Positions 2,589-34,096 of a DNA stretch of 64,000 nt are shown here, piece by piece. The notes beneath the pieces are model-generated. The model saw only the letters and a list, made by a program, of their open reading frames with translations. It searched no databases and was not told the DNA's origin. Position 1 is the stretch's first letter. Each line of letters begins with the position of its first letter. The DNA lies in assembly GCF_007004665.1 (NCBI RefSeq), contig NZ_ML660055.1, forward strand, positions 372,001 through 436,000, written 5' to 3'. Made by a program: the position numbers and the translations under genes. The stretch comes from Denitrobaculum tricleocarpae. GTDB lineage: Bacteria; Pseudomonadota; Alphaproteobacteria; Kiloniellales; Kiloniellaceae.

Positions 2589-3455
2589 CTACAGGGTCAG
2601 TTGCCCTGAACCATCGAGATATCGAAACCGCTGTAGTACGGCCCGGTGATCCTCGATAACACTCTCAACTTCGGCCTCAGTGAAACACGCCAAACCATCT
2701 CCGACACGGCCTCCGCGGAAAAAACGATCTGCGTTTCTTGCCCGTTCGACAAACCCGTCTTCAGATTCCTGACTTGCCAGCTCATCGAAAGAGCTGAAAC
2801 GGATCGCCCGGCGAAGCCGCTCTTCATCAACTTTCATGCCGAGGTGCTGAACTGCCTTTGCAAACTCAATTTCAGGGCGCTGCTTCATATCCTCGTAGCG
2901 CAGCACCAAGGGGGAGAGTTGCTCGTCATCAACCCAACTTCGGACGTGATCGCACCAGCGCCCCAGATACTGCGGCACCGTCGTCTTCCCATCTCCTCTT
3001 GTATTGTGACGCTTACTACTCAGGAGCTTAAGCGTTTCAGACGGCTGAAGCCCACAATGATGGGCATAAGATACGGCCACATCAAAGGGGTTGCGCAGAA
3101 TGTAAATGGATGCCTTGGTCACATCGAGAGTGACGGTCGAAATCTCCTGGAGATTCAGGACAGCTTGATGGGTTTTGACCAGCATGACATCGGCCTTTTG
3201 GCTGGCAAGCGCCCTGTGCACTCTGGGCCTAAAGCTGTGTATCTCGATATCGCTGAGATCTCTCAATAGCTTCCCTGTGAGCTTTTCATAGGGCGATCCC
3301 ATCATATCACTGAAGGTCAGCATATGGATCTTATTGATCGGAAAGGGTTCCTTGCTATTCATAATGTAATTGGCAAGGAACACCCGTAACCAGGTATTAC
3401 CCGACTTGGGAAAAGAGGCTAACCAAACCAACTTTTTTACGGGTGGTTCAGACAT
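2589..3455 (-). CDS. Sulfotransferase family protein (copy 1)
   Basis: 288 residues. Predicted to transfer sulfuryl groups from PAPS to an unidentified acceptor. The 5'-phosphosulfate loop is at residues 14-22 (SFPKSGNTW) and the 3'-phosphate motif around R121-S129 (RNPFDVAVSY). The third PAPS motif, normally RKGxxGDW, appears as FRGGRVGDG (246-254), so the adenine-stacking Trp is absent. There is no signal peptide or membrane segment, so it is cytosolic. It is a tandem paralogue of the next gene (well over half identical, 51 bp apart, same strand), pointing to local duplication. Substrate unknown; no glycan or lipid biosynthesis genes are adjacent. Confidence 0.88.
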   Translation of the reverse strand: MSEPPVKKLVWLASFPKSGNTWLRVFLANYIMNSKEPFPINKIHMLTFSDMMGSPYEKLTGKLLRDLSDIEIHSFRPRVHRALASQKADVMLVKTHQAVLNLQEISTVTLDVTKASIYILRNPFDVAVSYAHHCGLQPSETLKLLSSKRHNTRGDGKTTVPQYLGRWCDHVRSWVDDEQLSPLVLRYEDMKQRPEIEFAKAVQHLGMKVDEERLRRAIRFSSFDELASQESEDGFVERARNADRFFRGGRVGDGLACFTEAEVESVIEDHRAVLQRFRYLDGSGQLTL

Positions 3456-3506
3456 GGTCAGATCCGGTGTTTCGCAAGCCGTCGCTTATCGACGAGAAGT
3501 CTCCAA

Positions 3507-4358
3507 TCAAAGCGCCAACTCTCCGTGAGAATTCAGGTATCCGAACCGGGCCAATACCGTACGATGCTCATCAACGATCCTCGAGATCTGCTCAGAGGTG
3601 AATTGTTCGATACCATCCCCTATCCGTCCACCCCGGAAAAAACGATCTGCATTTTTTGAACGCTCAACAAAGCCTGAAACCTGTTCCTGCTTCGACAATT
3701 CCGTGAAAGAACTGAAGGAAATTGCTCGCTTCAGGCGCTCCTCGTCGACATCCAGCCCGAGGTGTTCAATCGCTCTTCCAAACTCGCTCTTTGGATCGCG
3801 TTTCATATCTTCATAGCGCATCACCAGGGGGGCGAGGACGGGATCGTCCACCCAACTGAGCACATGATCGCTCCAGCGCCCCAAGTATTGAGTTACGATC
3901 GATTTCTTGTCACCAGGCAGCTTGTGCCAAGGGCTGTTGAGGGCATCGATAATATCAACGGGATCCCTGTTATAATGGTGGGCATAAGAAACGGCCACAT
4001 CCAGTGGATTTCGGATCACGTAAATCGACGCTTTCGTCAAATCTGCCGTAACCGTCCAGTCTCCGCCGCGCTGGAGCACCGCCTGATGGGTCTTGACCAG
4101 CATGATGTCGGCTTTTTGCCCCGCCAATGCGCGATGAACGCGCGGCCGGAGTCTGTCGATCGTTGCATCATCCAGCTCAGCCAACGGTTTTCGCGTGAGC
4201 TTTTCGTAGGGCGCACCGGTCATGTCGCCAAAGGTCAAAAGATGCGCTTTATTAATCGGAAAAGGCTCTGTTGCGTTCATCACATAGTTTGCGAGGAACA
4301 GTCTGAGCCAGGTGTTACCCGACTTTGGGAAGGATGCCAGCCAGACAAGGTTTCCCAT
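3507..4358 (-). CDS. Sulfotransferase family protein (copy 2)
   Basis: 283 residues, starting with the PAPS-binding strand (LVWLASFPKSGNTWLR). The 3'-phosphate motif RNPLDVAVSYAHH and the C-terminal FRGGRIGDG variant are also present. Compared with copy 1 the N-terminus is four residues shorter and differences are spread over the whole length, so this is an old duplication rather than a recent one. It is first in the pair and the two are probably co-transcribed on the minus strand. Acceptor substrate unknown. Alternative: a sulfotransferase-fold protein with no activity, although the main PAPS residues are intact. Confidence 0.88.
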   Translation of the reverse strand: MGNLVWLASFPKSGNTWLRLFLANYVMNATEPFPINKAHLLTFGDMTGAPYEKLTRKPLAELDDATIDRLRPRVHRALAGQKADIMLVKTHQAVLQRGGDWTVTADLTKASIYVIRNPLDVAVSYAHHYNRDPVDIIDALNSPWHKLPGDKKSIVTQYLGRWSDHVLSWVDDPVLAPLVMRYEDMKRDPKSEFGRAIEHLGLDVDEERLKRAISFSSFTELSKQEQVSGFVERSKNADRFFRGGRIGDGIEQFTSEQISRIVDEHRTVLARFGYLNSHGELAL

Positions 4359-4630: not shown

Positions 4631-5737
4631 TTAGAAGTTGAGTTTCAGACCGGTAACGACCCAGTAACCGTCGTTGCTGCCGTCGCCGTCAGCATCGGTG
4701 TCGTCGTCAAATTCGCTCCAACCGATGGAACCGATCATCTTGATGCCTGGGCCAAGCGCGTAGCTCGCAGCCACTTCAGCGGACTGCAGCTCTTCGTCAC
4801 CGCTTCCGCCACCGCCGTCAGCTTCACCGTTGAAGTAAGTTACCGAGACGCCCCAAGGGCCGGTGCCGTAAGACGCGCCAATGTCGAAGGACTGGCCTTC
4901 GTCCGCGCCGGCTTCTTCCTGCTGAGCGTAAGAACCACCAACCGTGAAGCCAGCGAAACCAATGTTCAAGCCTGCACCAAAGATAGACGGATCGTCGCCA
5001 CCGGTTGCATCGTTGCTTGCGATGCCGTAGCGGCCGGAAGCAGCAATGTCAAAGCCACCGAAGCTCTCGGTGAAGTTGACACCAAGGTCAATGCCGTCAT
5101 GGTAAGAAGCATTTTCACTTGGCTGCGTGTTGTCGTCTTCACCCGCGTCAGGGGTGTAGGAGATACCACCCTGCAGGCCGGAGAAGCGCGGCGTGAAGTA
5201 GGTAAGACGATTTGCGTCATTTACCCGATCATTTTCCAGCGAAGTCGAGCCGAGAACGCCCCGGAACTGACCAGCTTCAGAATCGAATGGTACCCAGTCG
5301 CCCTGGTCACCGGAGTTGATGCCGATACCGACGTTCGGAGCAGCAACGCTCATGATGTAACCAGCAGAGTTCTCGGAACCCATCAGCACGCGACCGAAAT
5401 CACCTTCGACGAAGAGATAGGATTCGTCGATCTGGTCGTCGGAGGTGTTGCCCTCAAGCTGCACGTTCACACCGAACTGGATGCCGTTGTCGAGAGTGGT
5501 CGAACCGGAAAAGATGATTTCCGAATCGGACTTCTGGTCGAAATGGTCTGGATCGGTATTCGAGACAGAGTCGCCGTCACTGTCTAAACCTTCGAAACCA
5601 TCAGACGAACCATAACCGAAATACTGCTCCATGAAGCCGGAGACACCCAGCTGAATGGGCTCTTCAGCGTACACTGCAGGAGCTGCCATCATGCTGGCAG
5701 CAACCAGTGCAGTGCTTCCAAGAAGGATCTTTTTCAT
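4631..5737 (-). CDS. Outer-membrane porin (copy 1)
   Basis: 368 residues, a general-diffusion porin of the Gram-negative Porin_4 type. Signal peptide residues 1-24, cleaved after AVYA; the mature protein starts EEPIQLGVSGFMEQYFGYG. Alternating amphipathic strands fill the length and the last residue is Phe (LKLNF), the BAM-recognised C-terminal signature. The protein is strongly acidic, with Asp-rich loops (DSDGDSVSNTD near residue 53 and DTDADGDGSNDG near the C-terminus) resembling calcium-binding DxDxDG loops. It is a clear paralogue of the gene at 6292-7362. The leader is structured (see 5745-5775) and a strong terminator follows, so it is probably expressed alone and at high level. Confidence 0.93.
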   Translation of the reverse strand: MKKILLGSTALVAASMMAAPAVYAEEPIQLGVSGFMEQYFGYGSSDGFEGLDSDGDSVSNTDPDHFDQKSDSEIIFSGSTTLDNGIQFGVNVQLEGNTSDDQIDESYLFVEGDFGRVLMGSENSAGYIMSVAAPNVGIGINSGDQGDWVPFDSEAGQFRGVLGSTSLENDRVNDANRLTYFTPRFSGLQGGISYTPDAGEDDNTQPSENASYHDGIDLGVNFTESFGGFDIAASGRYGIASNDATGGDDPSIFGAGLNIGFAGFTVGGSYAQQEEAGADEGQSFDIGASYGTGPWGVSVTYFNGEADGGGGSGDEELQSAEVAASYALGPGIKMIGSIGWSEFDDDTDADGDGSNDGYWVVTGLKLNF

Positions 5738-5744
5738 AGAAAGT

Positions 5745-5775
5745 TAACCCCTAATTTGAGTTACCAATTTGGTAA
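5745..5775 (-). promoter_or_regulatory. Structured leader with ribosome-binding site, porin 1
   Basis: On the minus strand the inverted repeat TTACCAA-A-TTGGTAA (5761-5775) is followed by CTCAAATTAGGGGT, whose AGGGG is the likely Shine-Dalgarno about 9-12 bases before the ATG at 5737. The same arrangement, with different stem bases, precedes porin 2 (7369-7402). Confidence 0.6.
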
Positions 5776-6291
5776 ACGTAATTTTGCCTTGCTGAGGTTA
5801 TGATCCTTATTCCGATACCCGACCTGAGGAAAAAACACCAAGCCAATGAATCAAAGGGTCAAAACCACAACAACGACCTCCACCAACCGGCGAAGACGAG
5901 CGGAGATTAGTTGAAACGGTTAATTGGTCAACTCGAACTCGCACTCCGACGTGACATTTTCGCAATGCTGTGGCGGAATTGCCACAGGCGAATTTTGCAT
6001 TGAGCCGGCCGCAACGAGAGACTTAATGACGAAATATGGCTTAGAACATGGCTTTTCTACCGCCGACAGGGCGTTGAACAACGCTGTTGCAAAGAAGCAC
6101 TGCGTCAGATGGCACAAACATCACTGAACCGCAAAAACCGGAAAAGGAGCAGCAAGAGCCGCCCCTTTTCAATCTCATTCCAACGCCGCTTGCTGACGTG
6201 AATACATCAGCTGCAATGCGATCGGCGCCACACGTAACGCGTGGCCCGTGCTGCTCAGGCCCAGTCTATGGTCCGCACAGGCTGACTTGGC
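5776..6291. other. Intergenic region between the two porin genes
   Basis: About 550 bp including the porin 1 leader. It should hold the porin 1 promoter, but no confident -35/-10 pair was picked. The 65-67 codon frames in it match nothing known and lack ribosome-binding sites. A short inverted repeat AGTTGA...TCAACT lies near 5908-5933. No clear terminator for porin 2 was found; an imperfect CCACGCG/CGTGTGG hairpin near 6230-6246 lacks a T-run. Confidence 0.5.
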
Positions 6292-7362
6292 TTAGAACGA
6301 GAGCTTGATGCCGGTAACGACCCAGTAACCGTCGTTGCTGTCATCGTCCGCCCCGGACTCGTCGTCCTCAAAGTCATTGTATCCGACAGAACCGATGACC
6401 TTGATGCCTGGGCCAAGCGCGTAACTGGCCGCAGCTTCAATGGTCTGCAGTTCTTCATCGCCGCTCGCCGTTGAACCCTCTGCTTCACCATAGAAGTAAG
6501 AAAGCGAAACACCCCAGGGACCGGTCTCGTAAGACACACCCGCGTCCCAGGCCTGGCCTTCATTCTCGCCGGCTTCGTCCTGCTGGCCGTACGAACCGCC
6601 GACCGTGAAACCAGCGTACCCGACCGCAAACCCGGCACCGAACACCTCCGGATCGTCACCGCCCGCCGCATCGTTGCTGGCGATGCCGTAACGGCCGAAA
6701 GCCTCAACATCGAACCCACCGAAACTCTCTACGAAGTTTATGCCAACATCGATGCCGTCATGGAACTCGGCGTTTTCACTCGGCTGGTCGTTGTCGTCTT
6801 CCTCGGCGTCGGGTGTGTAGGAAATACCGCCCTGAAAACCGGAGAAACGCGGCGTGAAGTAGGTCAAGCGGTTGGCGTCGTTCACCGCGGCGTTTTCGAG
6901 GGTTGTCGCCCCGAGTGTCCCGCGGGCGGCAAGGTTGGCGTCGGACTCGACCGGCACCCAGTCACCCTGGTCGCCGGAGTTAATTCCGATACCCACATTC
7001 GGCGCTTCCATGGACATCAGATATCCAGCCGAGTTCTCGGAACCCAGCAGGACCCGGCCGAAGTCCCCTTCGATGAAAGCGTAGGATTCATCGATCTGGT
7101 CATCGTTGGTATTGCCCTCAAGCTGGACATTCACACCGAACTGAATGCCGTTGTCCAGCGTGGTTGAACCGGAAAAGATGATCTCGGAATCCGACTTTTG
7201 ATCGAAGTGATCGCGGTCATCAATATCGGAGGAGCCGTACCCGAAGTACTGCTCCATGAAACCACCGACACCCAACTGGATGGGTTCCTCCGCCTGCACT
7301 GCGGGTGCAACCAGCACACCGGCAGCGACAAGCGCTGAACAGCCAAGAAGTCTGTTTTTCAT
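6292..7362 (-). CDS. Outer-membrane porin (copy 2)
   Basis: 356 residues, paralogue of the porin at 4631-5737 along the whole length. Signal peptide residues 1-24 (ending APAVQA), mature start EEPIQLGVGGFMEQYFGYG, C-terminal strand ending GIKLSF. It lacks about 14 residues of the first acidic loop, where copy 1 has DSDGDSVSNTD, and has its own acidic loop DDESGADDDSNDG near the C-terminus. Differences cluster in predicted extracellular loops while barrel strands are conserved, as expected for two porins of different selectivity or regulation. Its start and leader (AGGGGT before ATG 7362) match copy 1. Confidence 0.93.
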   Translation of the reverse strand: MKNRLLGCSALVAAGVLVAPAVQAEEPIQLGVGGFMEQYFGYGSSDIDDRDHFDQKSDSEIIFSGSTTLDNGIQFGVNVQLEGNTNDDQIDESYAFIEGDFGRVLLGSENSAGYLMSMEAPNVGIGINSGDQGDWVPVESDANLAARGTLGATTLENAAVNDANRLTYFTPRFSGFQGGISYTPDAEEDDNDQPSENAEFHDGIDVGINFVESFGGFDVEAFGRYGIASNDAAGGDDPEVFGAGFAVGYAGFTVGGSYGQQDEAGENEGQAWDAGVSYETGPWGVSLSYFYGEAEGSTASGDEELQTIEAAASYALGPGIKVIGSVGYNDFEDDESGADDDSNDGYWVVTGIKLSF

Positions 7363-13277: not shown

Positions 13278-14264
13278 TTAGTTGACCGGTGTCTGGTTCA
13301 GACGATGCAGGACGTCATCGAGTTGTTCCAGCGTCTCGTAGCGGATCGTCAGAGATCCGCCCTTACCGTAGAACTCAATCGCGACTTCCAGTCCGAGCAT
13401 GTTGGATAAATCACGCTCCAGCGCGATGGTGTCTGCGTCTTTCTCAAAGGGGACCGGCCGGGACTCTGCACCTTCACCGCCTGCTCCCTTGGCGGAGGTC
13501 TTACCTGAAGGCCTGTCCGCCCCGTCACCTTCTCCCGATTTGGCTTTCTTGATGAGACGCTCGGTCTCACGAACACTCAGCCCATCGGCAAAGATACGTT
13601 TCGCGAGGGTTGCGGGATTGTCCGCGCCAATGAGCGCACGCGCATGCCCTGCACTGAGGTGTCCGGCCTCCAGAAATGACTTCACCTCATCCGGAAGTGT
13701 GAGCAGCCGTAAGGTGTTGGCGATATGACTCCTGCTTTTGCCGACCACGCGCCCCAGATCTTCCTGGGTGTGGCTAAACTCGTCCATGAGCCGACGATAA
13801 CCCTCCGCCTCTTCCAGGGGAGATAGATCCTGTCTCTGGACATTCTCGACGATCGCCACTTCCAGGGCCTGAGAGTCCGTGAACTCCCGAATGACCACGG
13901 GCACTTCATGTAACAGAGCTTTCTGTGACGCGCGCCAGCGGCGCTCCCCGGCGATAATCTCGTATTCGCTCGCCCGGTCCGGGTGACGGCGAACGATAAT
14001 CGGCTGCAGGACGCCGTTTTCACGAATGGAATCCGTGAGAGACGCCAGTGCTTCGTCATCGAAATACTGTCGCGGCTGAAAGCGGTTCGGATGCAGATGC
14101 TCGATCGGAACTTCCTTGGTCGAGCGCACCTTGTCGAGCGATGCGTAATCCTCGTTCTCGTCACCAAACAAAGCCGCAAGGCCGCGGCCGAGGTTGGTTC
14201 GCTTTTCGCTATCCTGCTGATTTTCTTCGGGGTTTTCCACGTCAGAAGGATCTTGATTGCTCAT
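13278..14264 (-). CDS. parB: Chromosome-partitioning protein ParB
   Basis: 328 residues. Centromere-binding CTPase clamp that loads at parS and spreads along DNA. N-terminal ParA-stimulating segment around NLGRGLAALFG (24-34), ParB/Srx CTP-binding domain with GERRWRA (106-112) and ENVQRQDLSPLEEAEGY (140-156), helix-turn-helix with LGRVVGKSRSHIANTLRLL, an acidic/basic linker rich in Gly and Lys (about 245-275), and the C-terminal dimerisation domain (GSLTIRYETLEQLDDVLHRL). Two perfect parS sites lie 1.8 and 4.4 kb away. Encoded downstream of parA. Confidence 0.97.
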   Translation of the reverse strand: MSNQDPSDVENPEENQQDSEKRTNLGRGLAALFGDENEDYASLDKVRSTKEVPIEHLHPNRFQPRQYFDDEALASLTDSIRENGVLQPIIVRRHPDRASEYEIIAGERRWRASQKALLHEVPVVIREFTDSQALEVAIVENVQRQDLSPLEEAEGYRRLMDEFSHTQEDLGRVVGKSRSHIANTLRLLTLPDEVKSFLEAGHLSAGHARALIGADNPATLAKRIFADGLSVRETERLIKKAKSGEGDGADRPSGKTSAKGAGGEGAESRPVPFEKDADTIALERDLSNMLGLEVAIEFYGKGGSLTIRYETLEQLDDVLHRLNQTPVN

Positions 14265-14416: not shown

Positions 14417-15487
14417 TTACCGCCGCGGAAGTTCCGCGGGCGCCGTCCCTATTCCTGAAGCGAGCGCGGAGCCAAACCTCTTGCTGTTCGCAATGGCCGT
14501 CGCCACCGGATCTTTGTCGCCCTGAGTCGCAGTGACCATAGGCCTGGGCGCTATCGGCTTCACTGCCGCTGCAGCTCCGAGCGGCGAAGGCGCTTCGGGG
14601 CGGGACGCCCGCGCCCCTGAAATCGAGGAGGAATGCGGGATCCCCGATCCTGGGACCGCCGAGCCTTTTTCGCGGCGCAGAATCTCGCCGGCCAAACGGA
14701 TATAGGATTGAGATCCGGCGCACTTCATATCGTAAAGCAAGACCGGTTTGCCATGCGACGGAGCCTCGGACACCCGAACGTTGCGTGGGATCATCGTTTC
14801 ATAAACGACATCGCCCAAGTGCTTTCGTACATCCTCGGCAACCATGTCACACAAATTGTTGCGGCGATCGAACATGGTCAACACAATCCCTTGTATCTCC
14901 AGCTTTGGATTCAGCCCCCTCTTCACACGCTCCACCGTACGAAGCAAATGAGACAAGCCCTCCAGGGCATAGAATTCCGCCTGCAGGGGGACCAGGACGG
15001 CGTCCGAAGCGACAAAGGCATTCAGCGTCAGGAGGCCTAGGGCCGGTGGACAGTCTATCAGGACATAATCATAGTCCCCAAACAGGCTCTCGAGACCATC
15101 GCGCAGGCGATACTCACGACGGTCGGCGTTGACCAGTTCGAGCTCTGCGCCGGAGAGATCGACACCTGAAGGAACGACAGCCATACCAGGAACAGCCGTC
15201 TCAATGACCACGTCTTTCACCGGCGTGCCGTCCATCAACACATGATAGATACTCCGCGCGCGGCGGTCGGGAGCGACACCCAATCCAGTGCTCGCGTTAC
15301 CCTGCGGGTCCATATCTATAATGAGGACGCGCTTCTTACAGGCCGCGAGCGCTGTTGCCAGATTGACGGCGGTCGTCGTCTTGCCCACACCACCCTTCTG
15401 GTTCGCAATCGCGAGAACCCGGGGCCCGCTGGACAGCTGACCTCTGGTCGCTTCGTTGTCCGAATTGGCAAAATGTTGTGGCTGCAC
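14417..15487 (-). CDS. parA: Chromosome-partitioning ATPase ParA with an extended C-terminal tail
   Basis: 356 residues, GTG start 4 bp after rsmG. Deviant Walker-A ATPase that moves ParB-parS complexes over the nucleoid. Walker A KGGVGKTT (31-38), DMDPQGNAS switch, DYVLIDCPPALG Walker B and the VSEAPSHGKPVLLYD segment are intact. The conserved fold ends near residue 275 (YIRLAGEILRREKG). An extra 81-residue tail rich in Ser, Ala and Pro follows, whereas most chromosomal ParA proteins stop near 260-290. The tail stays in frame and uses similar codons, so it seems genuine rather than a readthrough. Confidence 0.95.
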   Translation of the reverse strand: MQPQHFANSDNEATRGQLSSGPRVLAIANQKGGVGKTTTAVNLATALAACKKRVLIIDMDPQGNASTGLGVAPDRRARSIYHVLMDGTPVKDVVIETAVPGMAVVPSGVDLSGAELELVNADRREYRLRDGLESLFGDYDYVLIDCPPALGLLTLNAFVASDAVLVPLQAEFYALEGLSHLLRTVERVKRGLNPKLEIQGIVLTMFDRRNNLCDMVAEDVRKHLGDVVYETMIPRNVRVSEAPSHGKPVLLYDMKCAGSQSYIRLAGEILRREKGSAVPGSGIPHSSSISGARASRPEAPSPLGAAAAVKPIAPRPMVTATQGDKDPVATAIANSKRFGSALASGIGTAPAELPRR

Positions 15488-15491
15488 GTGT

Positions 15492-16178
15492 CTAATCCCC
15501 TATTTGTAGGGTATCCAACCGCAAAATCTGACCTTCAGAACTGGAGCGGCTGGAGAACCTCTCCACCCGCATACTCCACCTTTTACCGGCTGTGGTCAAT
15601 TCTTGTTCAGCGTTTTTGCCCTTGAGCAACAGAAGTCGCCCCGGGGGGAAGACTCCGGATTCCGGCAATTGGCGGCCAGGGGCACTCTGACAAGAGAGAA
15701 ATGGCCAGGCAAATCCGAGTAAATCATCTAAAGGAGCGAAGGCCCGTGCCGTGACAAGATCGGCGCGGAACGCCTCAACCTGTTCAATTCTCTTATTGTG
15801 AACTGTCACCTGGCACGATGTTGCGCGCGCAACTTCTCGCAGGAAAACGCATTTTCTCTGGTCAGATTCGATCAAGTGCACCTTTTGACACCCGAGAATA
15901 GCGAGAACCATACCCGGAAAGCCGGCCCCGCTGCCAAGATCAACGATGACCGGTTCGGCCTTGTCAAATGTCGGGGGCAAGTGTTCGAGCAGTTGTGCGG
16001 AATCTAGAAAGTGACGACGCCAGAGATCAGTCAGACTGTCCCGGCTCACTAGATTGATGGACTTGTTCCACTTGATCAAAAGCTCCGCGTAGAGTTCCAG
16101 CTTAACCAGTGTTTCACGTGAAACATCACCAAGGCTTTGCGCGAAGGACTCCGCCGAAAAGAGAGAGTCAGGCGGCAT
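15492..16178 (-). CDS. rsmG: 16S rRNA (guanine527-N7)-methyltransferase RsmG
   Basis: About 228 residues from ATG 16178 (an in-frame GTG at 16208 would add 10). It methylates G527 of 16S rRNA using SAM. SAM-binding motif [13 protein letters not shown] (near 78-89), the helical start [26 protein letters not shown], and the [11 protein letters not shown] motif are present. The start overlaps the mnmG stop by 11 bp. Codons 18-23 contain a perfect parS palindrome, a dual use known in related genomes. The region after about residue 185 contains an insertion ([14 protein letters not shown]) relative to typical members. Confidence 0.94.
16110..16125. promoter_or_regulatory. parS: parS centromere site inside rsmG
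   Basis: Perfect 16-bp palindrome TGTTTCACGTGAAACA, identical to the bacterial chromosomal parS consensus bound by ParB. It lies in the rsmG reading frame, about 16.9 kb from the putative origin. Confidence 0.95.
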
Positions 16179-18178: not shown

Positions 18179-18885
18179 GAAATGTCAACATGGCGACGGC
18201 ATCTAACCGCGGCAAGAAAACCACAAACACCGGGAGGTTTCAAACCCCTACGGGCCGCTAAATCTGTCGATTTTGCAGAACCCGCAAAGTCCCGGTACGC
18301 ATCGGGCTTACCAAGTGAGAGAAAGTGACCTCCCCCGCGATCCTCGGCGAAAGATCCCGCGTGCAGCCACTGACAGCAACAGCAGAGTGCACTGCGCGAT
18401 GGGGATAACGAATTCGGGCCTGAAGAGCAAGGTTTCCAGTTTCACGCCCGAAAACGGATGCATGTCAGAAAGACGAGTGGATCGCCGGAAAAAACCTCGG
18501 CCAAACAGCATTCGTCGCTCAGTCCATGTTCTCAGGGAGCGCGCGACCCGGTTTCGGCGCATGGCTTAACTTGGAAACGGACCGTCCTTGGGACTAAACC
18601 GTTCCCATTGCCCTGAGTGTTTCACGTGAAACACAGGAGGAAGTCCCGGAATACAGCCAATTCCCACTCTCGGCGAAGTTTGATTTCTTGTTGAAAATTC
18701 TCGCCGGCATTCCGGAAGACTTAGTTCAAATGCTCTCGAACAACCGCTATTTTTTCACGGTAAATCAATGACTTCTTAAATGTTCAGCGGTTAACATCCA
18801 TAATCTTTTTCGCATCGTGAAGCTTATGTGGACGCAAGAGTCCCTGCTCAACGGTGTCAATCAACGGCGGACAGGACGTTTGACG
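18179..18885. other. Divergent intergenic region mnmG / TPR lipoprotein, carrying parS
   Basis: About 700 bp. It contains the parS at 18618-18633 and an AT-rich stretch (18680-18815) that probably carries the lipoprotein promoter. Open frames of 84 and 98 codons at 18308-18562 and 18273-18569 have no ribosome-binding site or recognisable family, so they were not called. Confidence 0.6.
18618..18633. promoter_or_regulatory. parS: parS centromere site, intergenic
   Basis: Perfect TGTTTCACGTGAAACA, 2.5 kb from the copy in rsmG and about 14.4 kb from the putative origin. It lies 250-270 bp upstream of the TPR lipoprotein gene. Confidence 0.95.
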
Positions 18886-25481: not shown

Positions 25482-25497
25482 GATTTCACGTGAAACA
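25482..25497. promoter_or_regulatory. Degenerate parS-like site
   Basis: GATTTCACGTGAAACA differs from the parS consensus only at the two outermost bases of the left arm; the right half-site is perfect. It sits 2 bp after the ogt stop codon, about 7.5 kb from the putative origin. It could be a weak third ParB site. Confidence 0.5.
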
Positions 25498-31667: not shown

Positions 31668-32711
31668 TCAGGCGCGGACAAGCTTCATCAGTTGCTCGAC
31701 ATGTTCCGGCGGCGTTTGCGGAACGATCCCATGCCCGAGATTGAATATGAACGGGCCGCCGGCCAGGGCCTCCCGAATATCGGCGACGGCCCGTTTCAAT
31801 GCGTCTCCGCCGGCCACCAGTTTTATCGGATCGAGATTCCCCTGCAGGGTCACTTGTGACTGCAGATGATCACGTGCCCAATCCAGCGGCACGGTCGTAT
31901 CCAGTCCCAGTCCCTGAGCGCCACTCTCGCGGGCGAAGTCCAGATAGGCAAGGCCAACGCCCCTTGGAAACAAAATAACCGGGATGTCGGGATGAACCGC
32001 TTTGATGTTGGCGATGATCTTCTGGCAGGGCTCCAGACACCAGCGCCGAAGATCTTTTTCGGGCCAGACTCCTGCCCAGGAATCAAAGAGTTGCACAACT
32101 TCTGCCCCGGCTTCGATCTGGCGGATCAGATAGCTTGAAGTAGCTTCCACCAGCAGTTCGATCACACGCCTGAAGTCTTCAGGACGGCTGTAGGCCCAGG
32201 TTTTAGCCGTGCCGAAGTCCTTGCTTGATCCGCCTTCGAGCATATAGCTGGCAACGGTCCAAGGTGCACCTGCAAAGCCTATAAGCGCGGTTTCAGCCGG
32301 CAACTCCTCGCGCAGACGCCCCACCGTCTCATAAACGGGCGCGAGGTGTTCGTGAAATCCGTCAAGTCCCAGGCTTTCAAGATCCGCTCCTGATGTTAAG
32401 GCTTCCAGCTTTGGCCCTACACCCTCTTCGAACCAGACTTTTTGACCGAGCGCATGCGGAACGACCAGGATATCCGAAAAGAGGATAGAGGCGTCGAAAC
32501 CATAGCGGCGGATCGGCTGCAGAGTGACTTCTACTGCAAGGTCGGGCGTATAACAGAGATCCAGGAAGCCATTCGCCTGCCCTCTCGTCTTCATGTATTC
32601 TGGCAGATAGCGTCCTGCCTGACGCATGAGCCAGATCGGCGGGTGCGGGAGGGTCTCGCCCCTGAGGGCACGAAGAAGAAGCTTATTTTCGGATTTCACA
32701 CGCTTTGCCAT
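31668..32711 (-). CDS. hemE: Uroporphyrinogen decarboxylase
   Basis: 347 residues. Decarboxylates uroporphyrinogen III to coproporphyrinogen III. Signature PPIWLMRQAGRYLPEY near residues 20-36, GFAGAPWTVASYMLEGGSSKDF near 145, LFDSWAG near 210, and the C-terminal FNLGHGIVPQTPPEHVEQL. Its start faces the putative origin; hemE beside oriC is the conserved arrangement in Caulobacter and Rickettsia. Confidence 0.98.
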   Translation of the reverse strand: MAKRVKSENKLLLRALRGETLPHPPIWLMRQAGRYLPEYMKTRGQANGFLDLCYTPDLAVEVTLQPIRRYGFDASILFSDILVVPHALGQKVWFEEGVGPKLEALTSGADLESLGLDGFHEHLAPVYETVGRLREELPAETALIGFAGAPWTVASYMLEGGSSKDFGTAKTWAYSRPEDFRRVIELLVEATSSYLIRQIEAGAEVVQLFDSWAGVWPEKDLRRWCLEPCQKIIANIKAVHPDIPVILFPRGVGLAYLDFARESGAQGLGLDTTVPLDWARDHLQSQVTLQGNLDPIKLVAGGDALKRAVADIREALAGGPFIFNLGHGIVPQTPPEHVEQLMKLVRA

Positions 32712-32751
32712 TCAGGTCGGCTTCGGATTTCCCCACCCTACTTACAAAGAA

Positions 32752-32767
32752 TCTTATTTAAATAAGA
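32752..32767. repeat. AT-rich palindrome in the origin region
   Basis: TCTTATTTAAATAAGA is a perfect 16-bp palindrome about 40 bp upstream of the hemE start, in the most AT-rich part of the region. It could be part of the DNA-unwinding element or an operator for hemE. Confidence 0.5.
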
Positions 32768-33082
32768 AATTGTAGTTGTTTATTGGTGGGGTGAATCATG
32801 GGGATTATTTGGTTATGCAAAAACTGTCCACCGTCACCCTGATCCGGCCCGGTCGGACGGGTTCAATGTGACTGAATAAACTGACAACTTTGGCGACTCG
32901 GCAGAATCATAGGAAGAGATCCGCAGCATGAACAGCGTGAATTAAGTGCATAACTTTTTTATACGGACTTGTGATCGCCTGCTTATCCCGCCTGTGGAAA
33001 TATGGCAGATTCTTCGAACAGCCATTGGGAGGATTCCCGGGTCTGTGATAACTGAATTTCAACCCTCTCTGCGATGACCGGG

Positions 33083-33091
33083 TTATCCACA
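33083..33091 (+). promoter_or_regulatory. Consensus DnaA box
   Basis: TTATCCACA, exact match to the high-affinity DnaA box, in the context GGGTTATCCACAAT, about 185 bp before the ppsR start. Confidence 0.85.
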
Positions 33092-33274
33092 ATTTTGTGC
33101 CAATCCATCCACGAAGTTGCCCTGATGGGCCGCTCCGCCCGTTGTCCATGGTGCCTTTGGCAGTCGTTGAAGGCGCGCGTCAAAACTGGCGGCGGGTTCA
33201 AAGCTCATGTAAGAGAAGATCAGACGACCCGAGGAAGAGCTCGCAAGATGGCTCTCAGAACGGAATGAAACTAT

Positions 33275-34096
33275 ATGACCATCATCCACCTACATCTGGT
33301 GTCGGATGCAACCGGCGAGACCATCAATTCCGTCGCCCGCGCCTGCCTGGTGCAGTTCGATGTCGCGGAGCCGATCGAGCATGTCTGGAGCCTGATCCGC
33401 ACGCCGGGTCAGATGGACCGGGTTATCCAGGGAATTGAAGCCAATCCCGGTCCGGTTCTCTTCACCATGGTCAATGAAAAGCTCAGACAGCCGCTGGTCG
33501 AGGCTGCCCGCCGCATCGGTGTGCCCTGCATTCCTGTTCTTGATCCGGTTATTCATTCCCTGGCGGCCTATTTCGGTGTCGAGATGTCCGGCCGGCCCGG
33601 CTTACAGCATGCCCTCGATGCCGAGTATTTCGATAGGATTGCGGCTATGGACTATGCCCTCGCCCACGACGATGGCCAGCTCTACAGCGATCTGGAGGGG
33701 GCCGATATTGTTCTGGTCGGTGTGTCCCGCACCTCGAAGACACCGACCTGTATCTACCTTGCCAACCGGGGCATCAAAGCGGCAAATGTGCCGGTCGTGC
33801 CCGGTTGCGCGATGCCGAGCGAGCTTTTGACGACCAAAAAGCCACTCGTCGTCGGATTGACCAAAGATCCGGAAAGCCTGGTGCAGGTTCGTCGGAATCG
33901 ATTACGGATGATTGCCGAGGGTGAGGACGAGACCGACTATGTGGATATTGAATCGGTGCGCGCGGAAGTGACCGAAGCGCGCAGACTCTGCAGCAAGCAT
34001 GGCTGGCCGGTTATCGACGTCACACGCCGTTCGATCGAGGAAACCGCGGCGCAGATCATGAGCCACTATGCCCGTCACTGCGAACTCGCAGGCTGA
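33275..34096 (+). CDS. Pyruvate, phosphate dikinase / PEP synthase regulatory protein (DUF299)
   Basis: 273 residues. Bifunctional ADP-dependent kinase and Pi-dependent pyrophosphorylase that switches PPDK or PEP synthase off and on by phosphorylating a Thr. P-loop-like motif GVSRTSKT (149-156), N-terminal HLHLVSDATGETINSVARACL, DVTRRSIEETAAQIM near the end. The target enzyme gene is not in the window, so PPDK versus PEP synthase cannot be decided. First gene rightwards of the origin, equivalent to Rickettsia RP001 and Caulobacter CC_0001. Confidence 0.95.
   Translation: MTIIHLHLVSDATGETINSVARACLVQFDVAEPIEHVWSLIRTPGQMDRVIQGIEANPGPVLFTMVNEKLRQPLVEAARRIGVPCIPVLDPVIHSLAAYFGVEMSGRPGLQHALDAEYFDRIAAMDYALAHDDGQLYSDLEGADIVLVGVSRTSKTPTCIYLANRGIKAANVPVVPGCAMPSELLTTKKPLVVGLTKDPESLVQVRRNRLRMIAEGEDETDYVDIESVRAEVTEARRLCSKHGWPVIDVTRRSIEETAAQIMSHYARHCELAG

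Follow-up and report, generated by a model that had tools for sequence, protein, structure and literature searches.

The hemE-COG1806 origins of Caulobacter and Rickettsia are the described replication origins closest to the locus analyzed here, and the account of these origins in PMC1914354 sets out seven criteria for their recognition, not every one of which need be present. These are (a) homologous boundary genes, (b) an intergenic region of 200-1000 bp, (c) DnaA sites and an IHF site of the form WATCAN5WTR, (d) more such sites than in other intergenic regions, (e) raised AT content, (f) higher similarity among close relatives and (g) a shift in GC skew. The CtrA consensus TTAA-N7-TTAA is discussed in the same source outside the seven criteria. 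With respect to origin opening, DnaA of B. subtilis, as described in PMC8287927, extends from double-stranded DnaA boxes onto single-stranded trios that run 3'-GAT-5' away from the box, and its residue Asn187 contacts the central adenine of the trio, a position where thymine works poorly (PMC10721633). In E. coli, TTGT and TTATT on the upper strand of the DUE are bound by DnaA (PMC10316083).

In Denitrobaculum tricleocarpae, a Pelagibius-like member of the Kiloniellaceae, the DNA that separates hemE from the PPSR/DUF299 gene (Table 1) is very probably the chromosomal oriC, of the hemE-PPSR type described for Caulobacter and Rickettsia, and initiation is predicted to occur there. The window, that is, the whole stretch of 64,000 nucleotides that was analyzed, is C4:372001-436000 of contig C4 (534,451 bp), which belongs to a 6.44-Mb draft assembly of 34 contigs; beyond C4, we sampled 18 tiles of contig C1, two tiles of contig C8 and short loci, with skew tabulated for the C1 tiles only. 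Among named records, PPSR is closest to that of uncultured Kiloniellaceae and of Pelagibius sp. Alg239-R121 (97-100% identity). The gene order, with other genes interspersed, is parB, parA, gidB, gidA, mnmE, rho, hemH, hemE, the gap, PPSR, maf, aroE, coaE, a dnaQ-type exonuclease gene and secB, where the names gidB, gidA and mnmE rest on the translations and not on family searches, and the matches behind the name parA fall below their cut-offs. Elsewhere in the window, two tandem sulfotransferase-like ORFs (2589-4358) and two tandem porin-like ORFs (4631-7362) were recognized by eye from their translations.

Table 1. Features of the predicted origin region and its surroundings (positions in the window)
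Feature	Position	Strand	Remark
parB	13278-14264	-	above TIGR00180 cut-off
ParA-type ATPase	14417-15487	-	no match above its cut-off
Perfect parS-like centromere site	16110-16125	+	site search
Perfect parS-like centromere site	18618-18633	+	site search
hemE (URO-D, TIGR01464), left boundary gene	31668-32711	-	start codon at 32711
oriC (predicted), intergenic, hemE to PPSR/DUF299	32712-33274		flanking genes, skew minimum 265 bp away, box enrichment
AT-rich unwinding segment (putative)	32728-32784	+	78% AT at 32735-32784; invariant runs
46-bp conserved unwinding core (predicted): AT-rich / TTG-TAG repeat / spacer / degenerate DnaA-box pair	32763-32808	+	matrix search
Trio-like repeat TTGTAGTTGTTTATT	32770-32784	+	also TTGTA, TTGTT, TTATT; 32769-32781 invariant in genus
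DUE-proximal degenerate DnaA box TGATTCACC	32790-32798	-	two mismatches to Caulobacter G-box; GANTC (CcrM) site 32793-32797
Weak DnaA box TAATCCCCA, abuts proximal box	32799-32807	-	two mismatches
Weak DnaA box TTATGCAAA	32813-32821	+	one mismatch in Pelagibius sp. Alg239-R121
Weak DnaA box TTATGCACT	32945-32953	-	two mismatches
Conserved pair CTTATCCCGC / TGTGGAAAT	32982-33001		includes weak box ATTTCCACA, - strand, 32993-33001
Perfect DnaA box TTATCCACA	33083-33091	+	identical in all four genus members
PPSR/DUF299 (COG1806-type, PF03618), right boundary gene	33275-34096	+	family match

The boundary genes are homologous to those of the origins in PMC1914354 (criterion a), the gap of 563 bp lies within the length range given there (criterion b), and its GC content of 48.8%, as against 56-64% per 10-kb window of C4, reflects the raised AT of criterion (e). 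The preliminary description of this DNA had proposed a putative oriC between hemE and the DUF299 gene, at the place that carries the origin in Caulobacter and Rickettsia; the boundary genes bear out the type assignment, and the skew switch, the parS sites, the box enrichment and the conservation presented below all agree with the proposal. Its statement that the gap contains no gene also stands: the coordinates are exact, only two ORFs of at least 90 aa reach into the gap, each of them overlapping one of the boundary genes (hemE or PPSR) in a different frame or on the opposite strand, and there is no RNA gene match in Rfam at E <= 1. Scans of the gap for promoters and terminators gave nothing beyond chance, and a search for a RepC-type second replicon found none. 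A repeat search of the gap yielded two short two-copy families that we judged to be due to chance, among them GAATCAT(G/A)GG at 32793 and 32904, which carries two GANTC sites.

The present analysis establishes the place of the locus together with its skew switch (criterion g). Over all 534,451 bp of C4, the cumulative GC skew reaches its minimum at C4:404447, position 32447 of the window, which lies in hemE at its 5' end. A two-segment fit places its best change point on the same base, with a mean skew of -0.016 to the left and +0.020 to the right. This skew check had been proposed earlier, and the switch recurs at the same locus in sampled tiles of three relatives. In two members of the same genus, each sampled in 20 tiles of 20 kb, the sign switches between 770 and 825 kb with PPSR at 790.5 kb (G003:C1) and between 700 and 725 kb with PPSR at 709.3 kb (G001:C1). 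In the closed chromosome of a member of the same order (G036; 4,176,524 bp; 39 tiles, about one fifth of the sequence), the minimum lies between 350 and 440 kb, a range that includes PPSR (372.6 kb); the maximum is near 2.44 Mb, and the antipode is at 2.46 Mb. The only two perfect parS sites in the draft genome are those of the window, 14-17 kb from the gap; there is also a one-mismatch parS site on contig C5, and a third parS-like site in the window, with two mismatches, is found at 25482-25497.

It seems extremely improbable to us that the hemE-PPSR gap is a relic and that the true origin lies elsewhere in the genome, either close to dnaA (contig C8) or where C1 has a double perfect box. Two perfect DnaA boxes each do occur at C1:249071/249083 and C1:1042689/1042769, but the skew of C1 is positive in 16 of the 18 sampled tiles and slightly negative in two, and the cumulative skew climbs with no lasting reversal, and skew, parS and conservation all point to the hemE-PPSR locus. 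A better box cluster near dnaA, which the preliminary description had named as evidence that would speak against the gap, is absent from the 3.5 kb around this gene. The boxes there are two isolated ones with one mismatch each, the first upstream of dnaA and the second downstream, and the dnaA locus was rejected as an origin candidate. The pair of perfect boxes at C1:249071/249083 is spaced 12 bp apart, with TTATCCCCA at 248912, near an hsp20-like ORF (identified by eye); it is possibly a DnaA-titrating or reactivating site, or else a DnaA-controlled promoter.

The hemE-PPSR gap, which we continue to regard as the probable origin, is enriched in DnaA boxes (criterion c). The single perfect box TTATCCACA compares with an expectation of 0.003 per 563 bp of C4; there are no one-mismatch boxes in the gap, and four two-mismatch boxes start at 32799, 32813, 32945 and 32993. 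The total of five boxes with at most two mismatches contrasts with 0.81 expected and, in the comparison that we used for criterion (d), is equalled by 0.36% of all 563-bp windows of C4. The densest 50 bp (32735-32784) reach an AT content found in 0.06% of the 50-bp windows of C4. The preliminary description had listed a perfect box, weaker boxes and an AT-rich segment, all of which were recovered here, but its remark that a single perfect box is notably fewer than in many origins does not hold, because only 16 of 72 related hemE-PPSR gaps have any perfect box, so that one is not few for such origins. Across these 72 gaps, there are about 97 boxes with at most one mismatch compared to 7.7 in shuffled sequences and about 404 with at most two mismatches compared to 80.7. 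The proximal box at 32790-32798 is poorly kept in the genus, with three or four G-box mismatches in the other members. The DnaA sites of the Caulobacter origin are reportedly characterized as weak in a paper from 2011.

An IHF site WATCAN5WTR, the other part of criterion (c), is found in none of the gaps of the four genus members, and the D. tricleocarpae gap contains no CtrA site TTAA-N7-TTAA at one mismatch or less; CtrA-like sites with one mismatch are present in the gaps of two of the three genus relatives. Neither consensus search supports a Caulobacter-like CtrA layout in the D. tricleocarpae gap. A conserved block AACTGGCGGC is located near the PPSR start (33184-33193 and neighboring positions), outside the DnaA boxes, and a 38-bp run at 32728-32765, identical in all four genus members, adjoins hemE and extends well outside the conserved core described below; this run may include a hemE promoter.

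Comparison of the gaps reveals a 46-bp core next to hemE, common to many alphaproteobacterial records and described here as new. Among the titles and abstract openings returned by literature searches, none names this TTG/TAG core, which is no proof of absence; the NAR 2021 survey covers Proteobacteria. We collected 104 loci (74 + 30, the latter fetched out of 58 genomes, own included, in the search for relatives), 75 of which have the divergent hemE/PPSR order and 29 of which lack a hemE match; after the removal of three same-genome copies (L110-L112), 72 gaps remained, some closely related. The loci are not phylogenetically independent. On the plus strand beside hemE, these gaps show an AT-rich run that is followed by TTG/TAG trinucleotides and, after these, by CC(C)TGTGGATAACGGGGATT, either intact or decayed. 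A 46-column iterative matrix finds the core at more than 8 bits in 62 of the 72 gaps, with a top reverse-strand score of 5.9, and the column counts given here refer to these 62 cores. The 10 gaps below the threshold come from five Caulobacteraceae, one each of Hyphomonadaceae, Bradyrhizobiaceae, Rickettsiales and Rhodospirillales, and one unplaced alphaproteobacterium.

Circularity was avoided by training on one set of loci and testing on the other, with seeds taken from the training set only. The distant set comprised 44 loci with PPSR at most 63% identical, 32 of which pass the training threshold, and the close set comprised 28 loci. With the distant-trained matrix, 25 of the 28 close loci beat the 99% shuffle level on the plus strand, as against one on the reverse strand, and all 28 are placed as before; with the close-trained matrix, 28 of the 44 distant loci pass, two pass in reverse, and 36 are placed as before. 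The distant matrix gives the core at 32763-32808 a score of 32.5 bits, the top match on both strands of 534 kb, where the next independent match reaches 10.2. Its maxima elsewhere are 11.9 in 400 kb of C1 and C8 tiles, and 11.4 and 11.9 in the tiles of the two same-genus relatives G003 and G001, which miss the locus; in the closed chromosome G036, the hemE-PPSR gap core scores 18.1, and the best match in the remaining tile sequence scores 9.6.

Also established are the conservation of the core and its strand polarity. Within the genus, identity is 89-97% in the core block, compared to 56-89% in the rest of the gap and 52-82% at the third codon positions of PPSR, which is the similarity among relatives of criterion (f). 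Runs of TNG scoring at least 4 occur in 21 of the 72 gaps in the forward direction (20 of them at the core) and in one in reverse, with 0.5 expected; three consecutive TNG are present in 36 of the 62 cores, and the middle base in the TNG runs is T in 100 cases, A in 57 and G in 19. The TTRTW motif occurs 118 times on the plus strand of the cores and 25 times on the minus strand. The repeats of the E. coli oriC DUE are 13-mers.

The core is also present where hemE is absent. At 12 PPSR loci, rho is the nearest gene found on the left. In every one of them the core lies 360-401 bp before PPSR and keeps its orientation, with scores of 9.6-28.1; these loci were outside the training set. All 12 are MAG records (L028, L029, L031, L032, L034, L036, L039, L040, L043, L052, L055 and L082), eight of them labelled Rhodospirillaceae; L043 shows only the start of rho, at a contig end. 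The base set consists of 27 PPSR loci without a hemE match, all from the group of 74. The contig of one more (L012) ends before the left neighbor, and the core is present; the other 14 include four that are cut off near PPSR (1-300 bp), two with doubtful matches near -580 (L046, L075) and eight with no hemE, rho or core in the 3 kb examined. The 12 rho-type records have thus kept the origin core in place despite loss or relocation of the hemH-hemE segment.

A hemE leader is excluded as the reason for the core by these 12 loci. More broadly, it is very improbable that the gap is only a divergent promoter or leader region for hemE and PPSR, with transcription signals as its conserved blocks: the gap does part two divergent genes, and its longest invariant run adjoins hemE, where a promoter or leader is possible, but the core persists at -360 to -401 in the same orientation with rho on the left, the promoter and terminator scans do not rise above chance, and the skew switch and the DnaA boxes are left unexplained by such signals.

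The core is not a strict basal unwinding system (BUS), the B. subtilis arrangement of DnaA-boxes plus DnaA-trios. The rule given for this element in PMC8287927 calls for at least three 3'-NAN-5' trios within 16 bp of a box with at most two mismatches. On the plus strand at the D. tricleocarpae core it finds no match, whereas elsewhere in the same gap matches are seen around the boxes at 32945 and 32799; among the 62 cores, seven conform (seven of the 38 that have such a box). Because 99 of the 687 box flanks anywhere in the 62 gaps conform as well, the rule is not enriched at the core, and the strict BUS was rejected as a description of it.

For the origin as a whole, we infer DnaA binding, unwinding and helicase loading at the gap. 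DnaA would load on the perfect box (33083) and on several weak boxes, the degenerate box pair at 32790-32807 would guide it onto the plus-strand repeat TTGTAGTTGTTTATT, and the AT-rich segment at 32728-32784 would open and let the helicase enter there. The part TTGTAGTTG of this repeat, read from the box side, is 3'-GTT GAT GTT-5' on the plus strand. This sequence, together with TTGTA, TTGTT and TTATT and the plus-strand bias of TTRTW, makes the order and polarity fit the B. subtilis and E. coli models. The D. tricleocarpae DnaA has Tyr259 at the position of B. subtilis Asn187, and tyrosine is found at this position in 29 of 30 genomes (own included; 30 of the 57 DnaA matches were read), the thirtieth having threonine. 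It seems fair to infer that the trio is read differently in this group.

Whether alphaproteobacterial origins of the hemE/rho-PPSR kind have in common a separate unwinding element, in which a DnaA with tyrosine in place of Asn187 would read a phased TTG/TAG repeat, is in our judgment an evenly balanced question. It is less probable, though a serious alternative, that the 46-bp core is kept for protein-induced bending, cell-cycle control or hemE regulation and not for unwinding, in which case the origin assignment would still hold. The published NAN-trio rule fails at the D. tricleocarpae core, and the unwinding role of the repeat is a prediction, which leaves room for such functions; against them, the location of the core between the AT-rich segment and the box pair, its polarity and the TTRTW counts fit a DnaA-bound strand, no IHF or CtrA consensus was found in the D. 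tricleocarpae gap, and the core is retained where hemE is absent. Given a core outside the trio rule and a differing DnaA residue, strand choice by proteobacterial DnaA becomes testable with short oligonucleotides.

The proximal box of the predicted unwinding core may also bear on methylation. The gap contains six GANTC sites, compared to 1.4 expected, and GANTC occurs at the proximal-box column in 17 of the 62 cores, compared to 0.42 expected from the gap background and about 6.1 if the columns are independent (arithmetic from the column counts). The linkage of two of the GANTC columns has a Fisher p of about 1e-5, a value that ignores relatedness, and related rows inflate the count; the site is missing from the proximal box in one of the four genus members (L011). 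The genome encodes a CcrM-type methylase, with CcrM as its best family match (638 bits, below the curated cut-off of 830) and a RAMA domain, and a GcrA, which is above the Pfam cut-off and below that of NCBIfam. DnaA controls gcrA in Caulobacter. Here, the gcrA match (C6:132741-133391, minus strand) has a perfect DnaA box some 125 bp upstream, at C6:133516-133524, in keeping with such control.

According to an estimate in PMC3973325, about 80% of Caulobacter cells have hemimethylated GANTC sites near the origin. An effect of methylation on origin firing is possible. In Agrobacterium, as reported in PMC11514494, CcrM depletion delayed ori2, while the share of cells with two foci hardly changed for the DnaA-dependent ori1. 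Because of this ori1 result, and because the GANTC letters may simply follow from a proximal box of the type TGATTCACA, we keep a role of CcrM only as an idea. The combined proposal, that an own TTG/TAG element with Tyr-DnaA is joined in part of the lineages by a proximal box turned CcrM site, with methylation timing refiring, is accordingly a doubtful one. If it were true, the time at which an origin can fire again after being copied could depend on its methylation, as an analogue of Dam/SeqA control; with a GANTC located in the proximal box, an influence of CcrM methylation on initiation would be simple to test.

For an alphaproteobacterial group that has received little study, the probable origin is thereby placed to the base, with a likely opening site named, and a shared putative opening element at the edge of the AT-rich segment is added to what the preliminary description had contained. 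Compared to the hemE-COG1806 origins of Caulobacter and Rickettsia, as characterized in PMC1914354, the gap agrees in its boundary genes, its length, the presence of DnaA boxes, the raised AT and the skew shift; it differs in the absence of an IHF or CtrA consensus from the D. tricleocarpae gap and in the TTG/TAG core that is described here in addition. Like the Caulobacter Cori, as presented in PMC4285127, it has several weak boxes, one of them G-box-like; unlike Cori, it has one perfect TTATCCACA that is kept in the genus and no CtrA consensus. With the BUS of B. subtilis (PMC8287927, PMC10721633), it shares the order of DnaA box, spacer and trinucleotide repeat and the same 3'-GAT-5' polarity from the box, whereas cores of the D. 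tricleocarpae type mix TTG with TAG and the DnaA has tyrosine for Asn187. As in the E. coli oriC DUE described in PMC10316083, the upper strand next to the proximal box contains TTGT and TTATT (TTGTA, TTGTT and TTATT in D. tricleocarpae), but the repeats are trinucleotide-phased here and the proximal box is degenerate in the D. tricleocarpae genus. The predicted core resembles the unwinding elements of both B. subtilis and E. coli but departs from the trio rule as published.
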